Source: Deuterostichococcus epilithicus (Eukaryota; Chlorophyta; Trebouxiophyceae; Prasiolales; Stichococcaceae). Taken from it: a DNA stretch of 64,000 bases. The DNA lies in NCBI GenBank assembly GCA_033439295.1, contig JAVTLE010000023.1:3198530-3262529 (forward strand), read 5' to 3'. A program made the position numbers and the translations under genes. A model generated the notes under the pieces. It worked only from the letters and a program-made list of their open reading frames with translations, was not told where the DNA came from and made no database searches. Numbering within the stretch: position 1 is the first letter of the stretch; each line of letters starts with the position of its first letter. This document shows, piece after piece, positions 50,910-60,079 of the stretch.

Positions 50910-51982
50910 ATGGCGCACCCCACCGGAGGGTCCTACTCCATATGGGCCATGCCAAAAGGTGGTACCGCATGCGCGGTCACGTTCGACAGCATCGAATGTT
51001 ATGGTTGATTGCCTCGGAAAGGGTGTTATGCTCGAGACCCTCTGACCCAGGATCGACCTGAATGCACTTCTGTAGTCGTGAACGTCGCAGGCGCAGTGGC
51101 GGAAAGGCTGCAGCAGGACATTGACCGCCTCGCGGCGGATCATGTGGCGCCGAGCTTCCAGCCGCATGTCACTCTTCTCGGCGGCACGGAGCAAAGTGAA
51201 AAGGACGCTTTGAGAATCACTGCAGAGCTGGCGCAGGCGGTGTCGGTGAGCATTTCTGCCATCGCCCGGTAGTTGCAGCAGCCCGCGCCAGGTACAGCCG
51301 TATGCAAGATACAGCCAGATAGGTACATCAGCATGACCAAGCGCTGCGTGGTGGCTCTGCAGGCGTACAGAATCGAGTTCGACGACGTGTCCTACGGTTC
51401 CACATTCCACCAGGCGCGCCACTCCAGCGTAGCATCGCACCGTTCGAGCAGCTGGATGCTTGCCTGCGAACTTGGAGTTCACATGCAATGCTCCAGACCT
51501 GCGGCACTTGCAGCTTCGGTGCCCTGTGAAGCAGCCTCTGATGATTCTCGGCTGTGCACCACCAGTGTGTGTACATCCGCTGCAAGAAGGCAGACGCCAC
51601 TCTGCAAGCCGCGCAGCAGGCGCGGCAGGCATTTGGGGAGGACGCAGAGGCACACTACATGCCACACCTGTCGCTGCTGTACTCCGACATGGCCCAGGAA
51701 ACCAGGTGCGCATGCACATCCGGTCTCCGCAGATTTGCAGATGATGTGCCTCGTTTGCAAGGGTGCCCGGTCAAAGCCCACCGTGAGCGCGCCGTGACGT
51801 GCATGGTGGTGTGCCATATGCGCAGGGCTGAAGTCGCGGCGGCGGAGCAGCAACGACTTGTTGACGGCGATGCGCTGACTGCAGACGGCTTTGATGTCGA
51901 CAGCATCAGTTTGTGGTACACCATCGGCACGGACAAAACCTTGAGGAGCTGGAGGCTGGTGAAGGAATTCGATCTGTCATGA
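50910..51982 (+). CDS. CPD: 2',3'-cyclic nucleotide phosphodiesterase (2H family)
   Basis: Cyclic phosphodiesterase of the plant CPDase group, opening ADP-ribose 1'',2''-cyclic phosphate produced by tRNA splicing and other 2',3'-cyclic nucleotides. Exons 50910-50958, 51091-51245, 51363-51413, 51566-51705, 51826-51982 give 183 residues, against about 181 in Arabidopsis. The two 2H motifs are visible: FQPHVTLLGG in exon 2 and YMPHLSLLYSD in exon 4. N-terminus GGSYSIWAMPKG and end SISLWYTIGTDKTLRSW fit the family. Exon 3 ends either at CAG before GCGCGC (51413), which matches family length, or five codons later at a GT donor; both keep phase. Confidence 0.92.
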
Positions 51983-52438
51983 CCCAATTTTGCAGTTCAC
52001 AACGCACTTTCCTTCATTCCTTACGCTAGTCGAGCCTGATTCGCGGAGTTCAGAGAACAAATCAGAGCATCACATCACCTAGAGGCGTTACGAACATGCG
52101 GACCAGGCCCTGTAGGAGCCGTCACCACGAGGCCCCCGCCCAAGCGCCGCCGAGGCACTGCCATCGTCACCACAAGCCGGAGGCGCCCCGGCCATGTGGG
52201 CGCAGGCCTGGTCGCTGCTGCCTTGATGTAGAGCGCAGAGTGTGCCAAAGCTCCTAGGACCGGGCGCGCGCCGCAGAGGCTGGCTCCCTGCCGGTATTCG
52301 GCACCACGACGGCCAGTAGGATCTCCTGCGCTCAATTTGCCAGCGAAGCCCCTCAGCAGGACGTCAGGCGCAGGCTGCAGAAGCTGGAGCGGTTCGCTGA
52401 GCAGTCTGGACAGATTGAGCTGGCATGCTCGGGGGGCC
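51983..52438. other. Convergent intergenic, CPDase and API5/RRM/SPOC gene
   Basis: About 455 bp between convergent stops, GC-rich around 52080-52330. No gene or repeat recognised. Confidence 0.55.
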
Positions 52439-55400
52439 TCAGGTCCTGATGCGGGTGAGTCCCAGCGAACGCTGGAAGCGGAAGTAGACGCTGGAGATGA
52501 TCACCTGCGGCTCCCAGGCGACGTGCAGCTCGTCGCACACAGAGCGCGAGGGCGGGATGACGTACAGCGTGCGAGCTGGCTGTCCTGCGTCCGACGCGGC
52601 CATCTCCACCACGCCCGACCGCTGCTTGTCGCTCAGGTACTGCAGGCAGCAGACATACACATACAAACACTGTCAGACGATCAGCAGATGCAGGTTGCAG
52701 CTCCACCTATTGTGCCTCTTGTGATATCGTAAGAGGCTCATCAACTCGACATCATCAGCGAGGAGGTGCACCAACTCGGCATCATCAGCTCAACCATCAG
52801 GGGCAAAGGGCGGCGGAGAGGGAGGCTGCTTGCACCCCGAACTGTGCAGCTGCCATCTGCTGAGGACAGGGCAGCATCACACGGCAGCAGAAGGGGGGGC
52901 ACAGGGTCCCCGCACCTGCATGAAGCGCACAAAGGCGTGGCGGTTGGCGGCGCNGGCGCCGGCGGCCCGCCGNCGCACCGCGCGGTCTACTCCCGCCACG
53001 CCCGGCAGCTTCTGGCCCATGAGCAGCGCGGTGGGGATGCGGCTCTTGACCTCCAGCAGCTCCGGCCAGCCCGCGGGCTCCGCGGCGGCCAGGGTGCCGT
53101 GCGACGGACCCGGCGGCGGGCCGTCCAGGCACTCCACCTGCATTTAGCGTGCATGTGGCCTGTTTGGGCTCCGCGCTCGAGGCCTCGAGCAGTACGACTA
53201 GCACTGGGCTTGCACTCGGATGGCTGCAGCACATGCTGGCAGCGTTGGCAAACTTGGTTCTTGACCTGCATCTCCTCCCCATTTCTCCCTGGGTGGACGC
53301 CCAGCATGAGGTGTGCACCAGAAGTAGCTTCTCGAGCAGCCACCTGGCATGGCTGCACGCTCGGACGACCGAGGCGCCCTGTCCAGGTGGCGGCTGCTGG
53401 CGTCGGCGGCGGCGCCGCTGCTGCTGGTGCGCCCGCCGGCGCGGCTGCCGTGGGCGCAGCCACCGGGGTGGTGGGAGGCGCGGGCGGCCGTGGTGGCCCA
53501 GGTAGCGCCGCAGCCGCCGCCCCTGGAGCGGGAGGCGGCGCCCCCGCAGGCGGCAGCAGCCCGCCGACGTCCCAGCCGCGCCGCCGCCTGCCGCCGGCGC
53601 CGCTGCTCGCCCTTCCATTGGCCGCCGCCGGCGGGCCGCCGGAAGACGGCGTCGGCATGCTGGTGGCTGAGATCGCTCGTGACATACTGGCGTGGAGCGG
53701 CGATTGAGCGGGGGCGGCGGTGGGGGCGTCCGGCGGCGGCGGGCCACCCTGCAGCACCACGCGGATGCGGCCGGGGCCAATAGGCGCGCCGTCGAGCGCG
53801 CGTGCGGCGGCGGCCGCAGCACCGGGTGCGTGGAAGCTGATGACGGCGCCACCGCTGCTGCGGGCGAGCTGCCAGCGAGCCAGCTCCCCGAAGCGGCTGA
53901 ATGCGTGCAGCAGCTCGCGCTCGTGCACGGCCATGCTGATCTGCACGCTCGACGCATCACGGCGTGTCACTGGCTGTACCTGGCTTGCAGAAGACGTGAA
54001 CCCAAGGGCGCTCTGACATTCCTAAGAAACGCAGACGAGCCGACTGGCGTGATGGTGAGGCTGTGCCGGCGTGATAACACCAGCGTCCCTCGTGCAGCAT
54101 GATGCCAACTCTGTTCGGCCAAAGAAGCCAGGCCTTACCTGGCTGACCACCACGGTGCAGGCGGCCGTGGTGTCCCGCTGCCCGCCTGGCGGCGGCGCCT
54201 GCGCCTGCGCCCGGGCCCGCAGCGCAGCGAGCGCCGCGTCACCGATGGACGACTCTGCAAACTGCAGCATGAGCCCTGCACGGCAGCGTGTGGGCGATTG
54301 GCAGGCAGACAGGCACTGCGTCTCAAACGTGCACTGTGTCAAGCCCTGGACCTAGTCGCGGGTCACGGTCGGGTCGCGCCCGCCTCAAGTGCGTTGTGAT
54401 GTTGGTGTGTCGACTGGAGCGCAGGAGCACCTCAACCATTGATTGCAGTCGGTACAGAAACAGGATCCGCACTGACCTGGCCGAGCGCCGCCCACTCGCA
54501 GCACGCCAGAGACCTTCGGCAGATGCGCCGCGTCCAGCGTCGCCATGACATCAGCCTCGCCGGCGGGGTTGCACACACCACCCACCCACACGTGCGCCCG
54601 CTGCGGCTCCCACCTGCCGACACACCAAAGCATTGATGGGCTGAGTGCCTTGCGGTGCACACGGCACAGTATCGAGCTTGCACCTGGACAGAACCCTGCC
54701 ATTGCAGCTCCAGCGGGCTCCTCCTGAAGGTGCACCGCACACATCGACCCCGTGCAGCTACAAGAGCACCACTCGATCTTCTCAGACCAGTCGACAGCGC
54801 TCACCTGCCCCTGCTCTTGGGGGCCGACGCATCCTCCTCGACACAGAACTGCGCGTCCAAATGGGCACCGCCCCACGGCGACGCCCCGCACAGGTGCTCG
54901 TACGCCAGCGCTGCCTCCCTGCAGCTGATGGCATGCGCTTTCAAAACAGGGAAGGCCCAGGCAGGCGAGTGCGACCCATGCAGTTGCGTGTGCGACCGCC
55001 ACTGCCTCGTGATCAGTCCTGCCGATGTGGGTCTGTAGCCATGCGGCCCCGGAACAGTGTGCGAGTCTCAGCGCATTAATGAACTGAAGGGATCCGGCAA
55101 GATGGCGCACCGCATGCCGTGAAAAGCGACGAGGGCCTCGTCGCGGCGCGCACTCGGCAGAAACAGGATCTTCGCGACGCCGCCGGCGCGGGCGCACTCC
55201 GCGTGGAGTGCTGCCTCGCCAACATGGCGCGGCAGGCCGCCCAGCCACAGGTACGGCGCTGCGCGGCACAGCCCGCCACCCGGTCGCGCAGCCGCCGCGG
55301 CGTCCGCCGCGCTGCCCGAAGCCGCTGGCAGAGCCGCCGCCGCTGCTGCAGTGCCCGCGGCGCCGGCCGCCGCTCCCGCCGCAGGGGCTGCAGCCGGTGG

Positions 55401-57984
55401 CGCCGGAGGTGCCGCAGGCAGAGGCGCCGCTGTCGGGTGCGGGACGTGTGGCGGCAGCAGAATGGGCGACTCTGCCAGCTGTCCCTCTTCCAGGTCCATG
55501 TGGACATCCTCGTCGGACGCACCGCCGGCTGCGGTCGCGGCTGCAGCATTGGGCGTGACCGCCGGTGTGCCAACGCCGGCCGCCGGCAGCGGCGGCGGCG
55601 GCGGCAGCGCGACGGACGACTGCGAGGTGGAGCTCGGCAACGGCGGCGGCGCGGACGAGTCGGCACGCTGCGGCGGCGCCGGCTCCGGCAGCGGCGCCGC
55701 AGCAGGCAGTGCCGCCGCCGCCTCGGCTGGCAGCTCCTTCAGCAGCCGGTCCAGGAGCGCCAGCGCCTCCTTGGCCCGGTGCTTCGGCGGCTCTGCTGCA
55801 CGAAAGCATGAGGTCTCAGGGCCACCGTCATCAGGGAGATCGCCAGGAGGTGTCAGCACTGAACGAGAGACCAGCGACTCCAGCCATGCCCAGCGACATC
55901 AGCCATGCCTGAGGCTCAGGCGGTTCTTTGCTCCAATCACGACTTCAGAGCTTCTGAACGCGGTGCGCACACATGTGCAGAATCTGGCTGCACCGCATCG
56001 TCCGCAGCGTGACCCACCTGAGCGAAAGGGCTTTGCGGTGTTGCGCAGCCAGTGCTGCGTGTCCGTCTGTCTCGAAAGCACCTCCGCAGCCAGGCACTGC
56101 AACGATGCGCTGTTGGTTGCGTCCGTCGCATGGCCGTTGGGGGCTGCGCCCGCGATGCCCGGCGGCTGCGGCGCCGCCAGCAGCTGCTGCAGGAAGTAGC
56201 GGCTGCCGTCGCGGGTCTTGCCATCCTCCGCTTTCAGGCCCTGCAGCAGACGCAATTCTCGATCAGATACAGCTATCCGGGCCACCACACACCTGCCGCC
56301 GAGGATCCTGCAAGAGGGTCTGCAGCTGCAAGACACCCATGGGCGGCTGCGGCAATGCAAGATGCACAGCCCGACTCCCATGCAAATCCTACTGAAGGTG
56401 CGCATACGAGCACCGGCTGCTGCTGATAGCACACAAGCATTATGAGCTCTTGGTACTGTGGTCTCAACGCGCAAGAGTGGCCTCATCAGATCAGGGTACC
56501 TCTGCAGGACTGCAGCTCAGGTGACACATGTACTTTGTATCGAATCGCTGGCCACAGATGTTGCACTATGAAAGGTGGTGCAGCATGCTTGCAGTGCGAC
56601 ACAGGAGCTCGACTGGTAGCACACCAGAACTGCACCCCGCCCCCAAGCTACCCGACCAAAAACCCTGTGCTGCACTGTTCCATACACCGGGCGGCGAATG
56701 CAACCCATGCCCGCACAGGTTTGCAGCGGATCACCTGCAGGCTGGTGGCGAGCACGACCCGAGTTGACGTCCTGAAAGCTGCCTGCAGCGACTGCAGCGC
56801 GCAGGCCGGCTCCGAGGTGCCGCTCGCCGCGGAAGCTGACAGCCTGCCATTCGTCTCGGACGACAGCCGCCTGTGTGCACAAACAGTGAGAACGTCTGCA
56901 TTGCATGTGCTACATTTGCCTGATGCCATGGAGTCTGAAGTTGGTGGATCAAGGTGTCACTGCTTCAGGTCACATTCTGTGTGTCTTACAGGCTTCACAG
57001 ACTACATTTACATGGCAAAGTCCAACCAGCACCAGTGGGAAGGACAACGCATTGCTCGCCTGAGGAGCACTTCCGCGACCTTGGCGACAACTGCGCCCCC
57101 GGACGATGACGTGACCTTGCTGGCGGCCTCGCACACCTTTGCCAGGCCATGCAGCGCCTCTCGTCGCGCCGCCTGTGAGAGGTGCGACCCGTGGATCGGG
57201 TCAGCATGTCGATATGCCATGCTTGTGTGAGCTCCGCTGCCATCAACAAGCCTGACCCACTGAAAGGCAGGCATGCAGACAGTGGCCCAGCCAACAACTA
57301 TGCGATGTCCAGTGTTCACCTTGGACAGCACCCGCACACTTTCGGGGTCCTTCGATGTCGAGTGCGAAGCTGTGATGGTGATGAGCGCGGTCGATGCCTG
57401 CTCCAGCTTCAGCGGGAAGCTTCTGACGAACCGCGGGATGAGCCTGGCGGCCACCCGCTGCGCACATGTGCCGCCTGCCGGGTCACAGCAGGCTCAGGTG
57501 AGGGCAGATCGGTGTGCTGCGAGGCACTGGCGTTCCTCCTTTCGGTGCTCAAAGAGCCAGCGCCTACAATGTTGAAGTCTCCTGCTTAACACTGTCAAAA
57601 CCATGCACACATGGCATAACACATCGCCCGTGATGACTGTGGCACTGCGCGGCATGCGGCAAACTCTTGGCAAACGGGTCAGGTTCGCGCAAGCGCACCT
57701 TTGGCACCGTCCAAGAGGACACCAAAGGCTGCGGTTTTGTCGGCTGGCCCTGTGCTGTCGCTGCTGAGCTGCTCATACGCTGTGTACAGCGCTGAGACTG
57801 CCTGTCTGTGGCGCTGGCGCAGCGCCTGCTGGGCCTCGGACGACAGCTTCTCATGCTGAGTCTTGTGATCGGCAGGCGCTGGCTTCTTGGGGCTGGGGGC
57901 TGTGAGGCCGGCTGGAGCCTGCTTTCGCTTGGTCGAGTGATGCTTGTCACTGGTGTGGTGCTTCTGTGCAGTTGAGGACCCCAT
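52439..57984 (-). CDS. API5-like N-terminus fused to three RRMs and a SPOC domain (FPA-like)
   Basis: Exons 57984-57699, 57474-57320, 57172-57060, 56870-56735, 56240-56018, 55795-55111, 54918-54805, 54613-54477, 54275-54139, 53979-53344, 53137-52916, 52639-52439, every junction in phase, 1014 residues. After a basic, Lys/His-rich start (MGSSTAQKHHTSDKHHSTKR), residues about 60-200 match apoptosis inhibitor 5: LLDGAKGGTCAQRVAARLIP, RFVRSFP, REALHGLAKV, VAKVAEVLL. Then a Pro/Ala-rich linker; RRM1 AAPYLWLGGLPRHVGEAAL ... DEALVAFHGMREAALAYEHL; RRM2 AHVWVGGVCNPAGEADVM; RRM3 SSVQISMAVHERELLHAF ... GGAVISFHAPG; and a SPOC domain ending in TLYVIPPSRSVCDELHV. Three RRMs plus SPOC is the layout of plant FPA, which directs alternative polyadenylation. 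An mRNA 3'-end role is inference. Intron 3 has a GC donor (57059). Two separate genes would be the alternative, but no start or stop lies at the junction. Confidence 0.8.
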
Positions 57985-58364
57985 ACGGAAGCATGAGGGA
58001 CCTGCAATGAAGCAGATCGGTTGCAAAGGGTTCAGCAAGCAATGGGGGCTCTGGCGAGCGTCACCTCAGCGGGACAGCAAAGGAGGTGCACGGAGGTGAG
58101 GGCAGCAACGAGGCGAAGCGAGCAGGATGACAGCCGCAACGGTGAAGGTTGTGCAGTCTGACCGTATTCCGATCGCTGCTGCAGCCCGCAAGGCACTTAT
58201 GAGTACGTGTTTGTGACCCATGTATGGGTAGCTGCAGCACTTTAACCGTTTCTCGGCATGTAGTAGGGTTCTGCGACGCCGGCCGCCCTGTGCTGCTGTG
58301 CACAAAATTGCCGGACCATACTCTGGTCGACTGATCCACCTGGGCACCGGCAGAAGCTGCAAGC
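57985..58364. other. Divergent promoter interval
   Basis: About 380 bp between the start codons of the API5/RRM/SPOC gene and the DUF1499 gene. No recognisable core promoter element. Confidence 0.55.
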
Positions 58365-60079
58365 ATGGCAGCGTCAACGTTCTTGTCGGGATCCGTCGCG
58401 CTCGCGCCGGCCGCTCAGCGGAGGCGCACTCTCCCCTTCAGCAGTGCACGCCAGGCCACAAAGATTGTCACACGCGCAGTGGCTGGCCAGCAAGATGCCG
58501 GGTGCGTTTGGTGAAGGAGCAATGACATTCGATGTCCGGAGCGATCCCTTACTTTCCAGATGTCTATGCGGCTCCTGCAAAGCATTCCATGCAACTCCTC
58601 CAAAGGACTGTGAAGCAAAGCCGCGGACGTTGCATTGCCTGATTGAATGCAGACGCCGTGAGGTCCTGCTGAGGAGCGTCAACATGGGCGTCCTGGCGTC
58701 CTTGTTCAGCTTTGGCGCCGTTGATCGCCCCAAGGACCTCGGCATCCAGGTACAGTTTGACGGCGGCGTCACCGCCGCGGCAAGGAAGCAACACCAGCAC
58801 GCCAGCCATCTCAAAAAGGGGGTTCCAGCTTGCATCAGACGCACTGCTTCTTCTTGACCTCTTTGTTGTTGTGACTGCAGGACTACAGTGCTCAGGGAGG
58901 TGGCAAGACACTTGGCCTATGCCCCAAGTCACCCAATTGCATCAGTACAGCGGGACTGGATGACGATAAACACTACGTGCCGCCATGGCAATGTGAGATG
59001 GCTGAAATGATTCTTCCTGCGTATTGCAGATTCGTGACAATGACAGACTGCTGCAATCGACATTGCACGGCAGTGCCCCAAAATCTGGCGGTCCGAGTGG
59101 CACGCTGATGATGCCATATCTCTGAGCGGCAAGGTCCACCAGTCACCTCGTTTCAATTATGCAGAGGCACTGCTGTGTGATGTGCAGACAATCCGGAGGA
59201 GGGCCGCGGTCGCTCGAAGCCAATCTCGCAGGCGGAGGCCATCGAAGAACTCGTGCAGGCGGTGCGCCCCTCTGCGAGAGACTCACATGAAAAATTCATG
59301 TACATAGCTGAGCAACTTTCAGGAGGCGTGATGATGCCAGGCCTGATGATGGACCGAGGCCGCCTGGCGGAAATTGCATGGAGGCTGCAGGAAGGTGTAG
59401 GCTTGGTGGTGAGCAATCTGGGTGATGGCACTTTTCCCAGAAGAACCCTGGCTGCCGCAGGTGTCCAGTCTGAAGCCGGACAAGTTCGAGCCGAAGCTCA
59501 TCTCACGCACGGACGACTACGTGTACTTTGAGTTTTCCTCGCCGACGTTTGGGTTCATTGACGACGTGAGTCCTGCGGCATGTTATGCTGTGGGCACCTC
59601 GTGGCCGCGCACATGCACGCAGATGTGCCAACGATTCATGTTGTAATTTTGGTTCATCGCCCCGCGAATGTCACATCTCGCCAGCAGGCCAGCTGTACGA
59701 CTTGACTACCGCCCTGGGATTGCACGATGCCTTCCCGCTCTGCAGATCTCAACACGTGGAGGGTCAATGATTGCAGGTGGAGTTCTTCTTCCCCGGCAAG
59801 GACTCGACGGTGGAGTACCGCAGCGCCTCGCGTATCGGCGAGTCCGATGGCGACATCAACCGCAAGCGGATCAGGTACCTTGTTGTACCTAGATTGTTGC
59901 GTGGTGCTGTCTTGATGTTCAGTCAGTTGGTGATAGTGCACTCGCATGGCCGATCCCACCTGCAGATGGCGGGCACCTACAGATGACCAGGCGTGCTCCA
60001 ATGTCTGTTGTGCGTGAATTGGCGCAGAGACATCCGGAAGGTGCTGCAGCAGAAGGGCTGGAAGTCCATCGGCTACTGA
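58365..60079 (+). CDS. DUF1499 thylakoid-lumen protein with transit peptide and Tat signal
   Basis: Plant/algal lumenal DUF1499 protein, function unknown. Exons 58365-58501, 58653-58749, 58881-58992, 59188-59261, 59461-59565, 59777-59874, 60028-60079 are in phase, 224 residues. Exon 1 encodes a typical chloroplast transit peptide (MAASTFLSGSVALAPAAQRR, no acidic residues, Ser/Arg/Ala-rich). Exon 2 encodes a twin-arginine lumen signal, RREVLLRSVNMGVLASLFSF, its first Arg adjoining the splice junction. The mature part has LGLCPKSPNCISTAG, DDDKHYVPPW, NPEEGRGRSKPISQAEAIEE, KLISRTDDYVYFEFSSPTFG, EYRSASRIGESDGDINRKRI and end VLQQKGWKSIGY. The two cysteines (CPKSPNC) could bond in the lumen. Location is well supported; activity is not known for the family. 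Confidence 0.92.

Follow-up and report, generated by a model that had tools for sequence, protein, structure and literature searches.

In a 64,000-nucleotide stretch of contig JAVTLE010000023.1 of the green alga Deuterostichococcus epilithicus (the window), splice sites and reading frames were used to rebuild a gene on the minus strand, and its 12 exons (E1-E12, 57984-52439) splice in frame into a predicted protein of 1001 residues. All 12 exons probably lie on one mRNA which, judged from sequence, would encode a Spen/FPA-like adaptor with an N-terminal API5-type HEAT module. A previous reading made from the letters of the window (the sequence-only reading) had proposed this join on a chain of 12 compatible exons. 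The in-frame chain and its 1014 residues were reproduced exactly, but one acceptor was wrong, that of E10, which was shifted from 53979 to 53940 because the 13 intervening residues are absent from P0001, a related predicted protein described below, because TGCAG stands at the better site and because the coding signal of E10 starts there (at 53940 in a coding model trained elsewhere in the genome and at 53949 in one trained on the window). With the acceptor corrected, the third RRM (RRM3) taken alone rose from 21.0 to 25.3 bits.

Domain content of the predicted protein

A domain search, suggested in the sequence-only reading as a check, was carried out with Pfam and returned API5, RRM_1 and SPOC in the model. 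The API5 match covered residues 64-191 with an E value of 9.3e-8 and 31.8 bits, above the curated cut-off of 27.4, and was confined to profile positions 2-109 of 536, approximately the first fifth. Human API5 was aligned over approximately 110 residues at an E value of 7e-8 in a sequence search of the PDB, in which three human API5 sequences were the only matches of the N-terminal part with an E value below 0.4. Residues 65-149 scored 19.8 standard deviations above shuffled sequences when compared with human API5 and 12.1 standard deviations above them when compared with a sequence taken as Arabidopsis API5, with none of 500 shuffles equalling the score in either case. The API5-like identity proposed earlier holds, as that of a fragment. 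The full API5 length (HEAT plus ARM-like, approximately 500 residues) was not found, the C-terminal half being unrecognisable, and because the API5 part is a fragment, an apoptosis-inhibitor function is unwarranted. In a forced alignment the homology seemed to the eye to extend through E4-E6, yet this extension did not score above shuffles and was rejected. It is very improbable that a helical repeat resembles API5 here by chance, the N-terminus being simply a stretch of Spen protein that is so far uncharacterised; the short stretch of the profile that is matched and the low identity speak for a chance resemblance, but the Pfam score above its cut-off, the restriction of PDB matches below E 0.4 to API5 sequences and both shuffle comparisons argue against it.

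The SPOC match spanned residues 847-968 with an E value of 2.9e-7 and 31.0 bits (cut-off 25). Its best match among solved structures was Arabidopsis FPA, with an E value of 0.049 using one sequence and 4.4e-4 using a two-sequence profile, in keeping with the FPA-like identity assigned in the sequence-only reading; RBM15 and SPEN/SHARP were also weakly matched in the PDB search. RRM_1 was matched at residues 658-717 of the 1001-residue model with an E value of 3.8e-7. Three RRMs had been claimed, of which RRM1 and RRM3 are recognisable, RRM1 scoring 14.9 bits in the model piece (under the cut-off of 20.7) and 22.1 bits in P0001, but RRM2 matched no searched family, with no Pfam match in the model or in P0001 and no PDB sequence match; the RRM2-like segment is 53% identical between the two proteins. 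In the PDB, a two-sequence profile of RRM1 matched known RRM proteins, among them PABP, Sex-lethal and TIA-1, all of them outscored by designed helical-repeat proteins.

Among 2108 candidate proteins, P0001 (717 residues, E 3.7e-38) was the sole match of the SPOC part. Its contig is 2576 bases long, with the source label 'lgn', and since P0001 forms one unbroken frame over a region that is split into eight exons here (E5-E12), it was taken to come from a transcript, an intronless gene copy being the alternative. In this unbroken 717-residue frame a single polypeptide carries both the RRM part and SPOC. P0001 ends with SPOC, which scores 38.1 bits in Pfam and is 58% identical to the SPOC of the model.

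One gene or two

The junction from 56018 to 55795 (E5 to E6), the key test of the fusion in the sequence-only reading, is crossed by the unbroken frame of P0001 with 60% identity over 56 columns, and a gene boundary there is therefore unlikely. The intron between E5 and E6 is 222 nucleotides long, similar to the rest of the model. The segment conserved across the junction, CLAAxVLSxQxDTQxWLRxTA...PKHRxKExxALLDxLL, corresponds to P0001 residues 30-85 and to window positions 56111-56018 together with 55795 to approximately 55722. No Pfam family was matched by it (best E values 0.35 and 1.7), and what it hit in the PDB was discarded, being a 14-residue stretch that recurs in designed proteins.

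Coding potential was estimated using a coding model trained without annotation twice, once on the window and once on 150 kb elsewhere in the genome (held-out), with both versions seeded from some exons of this gene; paired values in nats are coding log-odds from the window-trained and the held-out model, in that order. The window-trained model found 12 of 12 exons, every one in the model frame. On average, the held-out model assigned 11 exons to the model frame, E10 being split between the model frame (0.39) and the opposite strand (0.38), and its hidden Markov model (HMM) called the opposite strand at 55379-55440 within E6 and at 53354-53564 within E10. Read-through of E5 to a stop near 55900 was non-coding (-6.8/-14.5 nats), and in E6 the stretch that precedes the first in-frame ATG (55499) was strongly coding (+60.3/+58.8 nats). 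A gene that ends near 55900 therefore does not fit, nor does one that begins in E6, and the two outcomes named in the sequence-only reading as signs of two genes, a transcript ending near 55900 and an independent start for the RRM/SPOC part, were unseen in the sequence statistics. Thus the proposed join is supported at 56018-to-55795, but the linkage of the API5 and RRM/SPOC parts hinges on the junction from 56735 to 56240 (E4 to E5).

It is unlikely, though the alternative that survives best, that two tandem genes are present, a short API5-like gene (E1-E4, with read-through to a stop at or near 56648) and an RRM/SPOC gene with its first exon in 56648-56241. No gap in the model is longer than that between E4 and E5, and the E5 frame is open upstream to 56516, making an upstream ATG available; the predicted start of P0001 lies approximately 59 residues upstream of the E5/E6 junction, and P0001 lacks an API5 part. 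Joining in frame cannot discriminate between one gene and two: across 214 kb, 257 of 280 neighbouring coding segments on the same strand were joinable in frame under a loose rule, so that phase compatibility, which the sequence-only reading had offered as evidence and which is indeed present, is a poor argument. However, the E5 frame in the 3' part of the gap (56468-56241) was non-coding in both models (-29.2/-36.2 nats), as was E4 when extended to its stop codon (-8.8/-10.3 nats). E5 contains no in-frame ATG and the coding signal starts at its TGCAG acceptor (56240), close to which the 5' limit of the coding segment falls in the two models (56244 and 56247). Moreover, the P0001 start is not conserved here, and if a bacterial gene caller was used, the M with which P0001 begins may stand for a GTG, TTG or ATG inside a longer frame. 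A single gene was favoured because no coding start for the RRM/SPOC part was seen in the gap at 56734-56241; a boundary within it combined with a very short first exon is possible. Two in-frame micro-exons placed in the gap in a 14-exon version (56501-56469 and 56319-56293) scored as non-coding (-4.6/-6.4 and -1.6/-2.1 nats, respectively), and the model was therefore returned to 12 exons.

Several observations weigh against a single gene with the proposed architecture. No relative covers the 56735-56240 junction, and the predicted P0001 protein begins inside the segment equivalent to E5, without an API5 match. The 494-nucleotide E4-E5 gap is longer than every other intron of the model (147-276 nucleotides), although 17.9% of the in-frame-joinable gaps in the 214 kb were at least 480 nucleotides long, a class of gaps that may itself include missed exons and gene boundaries. 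The held-out HMM places E4 on the opposite strand (model-frame posterior 0.02), where E4 scores +6.1/+11.1 nats compared with +13.1/+8.2 nats in the model frame, the opposite strand being higher in the held-out model, and E3 uses a GC donor. API5 similarity past residue 149 was not above shuffles in any of the six later segments tested (from the model or P0001), and the API5 part found no relative among the predicted proteins searched (7999 and 108 candidates).

More doubtful is the reading that this one locus yields both a fused mRNA of full length and shorter mRNAs arising through premature polyadenylation in an early intron or from an internal promoter. A precedent is described in Arabidopsis, in which FPA regulates itself through intron 1 of its own gene (PMC8116057), and P0001 could represent such a shorter product in a relative. 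Intron 3 follows the GC donor and holds both TGTAA motifs (57012 and 56990), the only two on the minus strand within 51000-60000; use of UGUAA is reported for late-branching green algae (PMC1868727). However, TGTAA was not enriched after predicted gene ends (38 sense and 36 antisense occurrences in 127 stretches of 800 nucleotides, from a crude set of gene ends in 214 kb), so that the motif gives no support, and premature polyadenylation in intron 3 via TGTAA was dropped as a candidate. The alternatives overlap, two products being compatible with a fusion, and the likelihoods assigned to them do not sum to one.

Exon structure and surroundings

In the 12-exon model all introns are of the GT-AG type except for the GC donor (CAG/GCGAGC) at 57059-57058, 3' of E3. 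E1 (57699-57984) opens with the ATG at 57984 and a basic N-terminal tail, after which the API5-like HEAT segment begins (splice model; +18.4/+8.5 nats). The API5-like segment continues in E2 (57320-57474; +20.5/+9.1 nats), which carries GGTCAQRVAARLIPRF and falls within both the Pfam match and the human API5 alignment, and in E3 (57060-57172; splice model and Pfam; +13.1/+4.6 nats). E4 (56735-56870) is the final exon on the API5 side, with the Pfam match covering its first residues only. The gap that follows (56241-56734) would be an intron if there is one gene and is the sole remaining site for a boundary if there are two. E5 (56018-56240) is internal, with positions 56111-56018 kept in P0001 (+27.1/+24.3 nats), and E6 (55111-55795), which scores as coding, comprises the conserved junction segment, a long Ala/Pro linker and, from approximately 55256, the first part of RRM1, the remainder of which lies in E7 (54805-54918). 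The RRM2-like segment starts in E8 (54477-54613) and ends in E9 (54139-54275), which also holds the first strand of RRM3. E10 (53344-53940) contains RRM3 to approximately 53776, a Pro/Ala linker and the start of SPOC from 53388; SPOC continues through E11 (52916-53137; +43.0/+44.4 nats) and ends, with the stop codon, in E12 (52439-52639; splice model and Pfam). E11 holds two N, one of which leads to an undetermined residue in the model.

Within approximately 1.5 kb on each side of the gene, the coding signals of the held-out model are on the plus strand, save for a weak minus-strand call at 51827-51870 (posterior 0.51). The window-trained model adds minus-strand segments at 52111-52228, 52260-52388 and 58263-58442, and the gene ends may therefore extend beyond the model. 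An acceptor-like TGCAG lies at 58006-58002 on the minus strand, approximately 18 bases 5' of the start codon, and a 5' intron or an upstream exon is possible. On the plus strand, an upstream frame at 59413-59646 shows weak similarity to DUF1499, its 20.8 bits (E 5.6e-4) falling just short of the cut-off of 22.6, and for a downstream frame at 51545-51982 the match is to plant-type cyclic phosphodiesterase (CPDase), with 21.7 bits against a cut-off of 21 (E 1.9e-4).

Comparison with known proteins and proposed role

Like FPA of the Spen family in Arabidopsis, the predicted protein has one or more RRMs followed by a C-terminal SPOC; unlike FPA, it adds an N-terminal API5-like module and the conserved E5/E6 segment, and its RRM2 is unrecognisable. 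FPA is not known to carry an API5-like module. The Spen architecture and weak SPOC matches are shared with RBM15 and SPEN/SHARP, with the SPOC match weaker than that to FPA, and no API5 module is known in either of these. In common with API5/AAC-11 of animals and plants, the first approximately 110 API5 residues are matched, including the DG.KGG...R.AA..IP.F motif, whereas neither the remainder of the HEAT half nor the ARM-like half is recognisable, and RRM and SPOC modules are attached. In an open-licence library of papers, nothing was found that pairs API5 with 'SPOC domain' or FPA, or 'SPOC domain' with algae.

All matches found in the 46.8-Mb genome were at this locus: nine with P0001, seven with the API5 part (up to an E value of 10) and one with SPOC (E 0.025, in E12). 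Neither half was detected elsewhere in the genome, at a limited sensitivity that diverged stand-alone genes may escape; searches using the API5 family and the sequence taken as Arabidopsis API5 gave no match but missed this locus too and are uninformative. The SPOC part, the API5 part and P0001 had no match in viral contigs, nor had the SPOC profile in prokaryote genomes, a set not expected to hold a eukaryote. A lineage-specific fusion may tentatively be proposed to replace both separate proteins in this organism, tying 3'-end choice to the export machinery.

The Spen family, including FPA, is described as defined by three RRMs and a SPOC domain (PMC8116057), and the API5 domain as widespread across eukaryotes (PMC5982838). 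The single gene favoured here would probably combine known parts in a new way, as a Spen-type protein with an N-terminal API5-type module. FPA is reported to promote poly(A) site choice, with a SPOC that may bind the C-terminal domain of the polymerase (PMC8116057), and human API5 to bind UAP56 directly and to act in mRNA export, with a plant API5 binding related helicases (PMC7293033, PMC10813780). By analogy, the RRMs would bind pre-mRNA and the C-terminal SPOC would dock on RNA polymerase II in its phosphorylated form or on partners in 3' processing, as suggested for FPA, giving the protein a putative role in poly(A)-site choice. The HEAT module, on long Ala/Pro linkers, would recruit a partner in mRNA maturation or export; binding of UAP56 or another TREX component is the candidate suggested by API5. 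The protein would thereby couple the choice of mRNA 3' end to export.

In the sequence-only reading the join was taken as a Rosetta-stone hint that the two proteins act together; the API5-like and FPA-like identities stand, but this hint rests on one genome. If the natural fusion is true, it would be independent evidence that API5 and FPA-type proteins act at the same step, and would predict for plants and animals that API5 and Spen proteins, where they exist separately, come together on shared transcripts.

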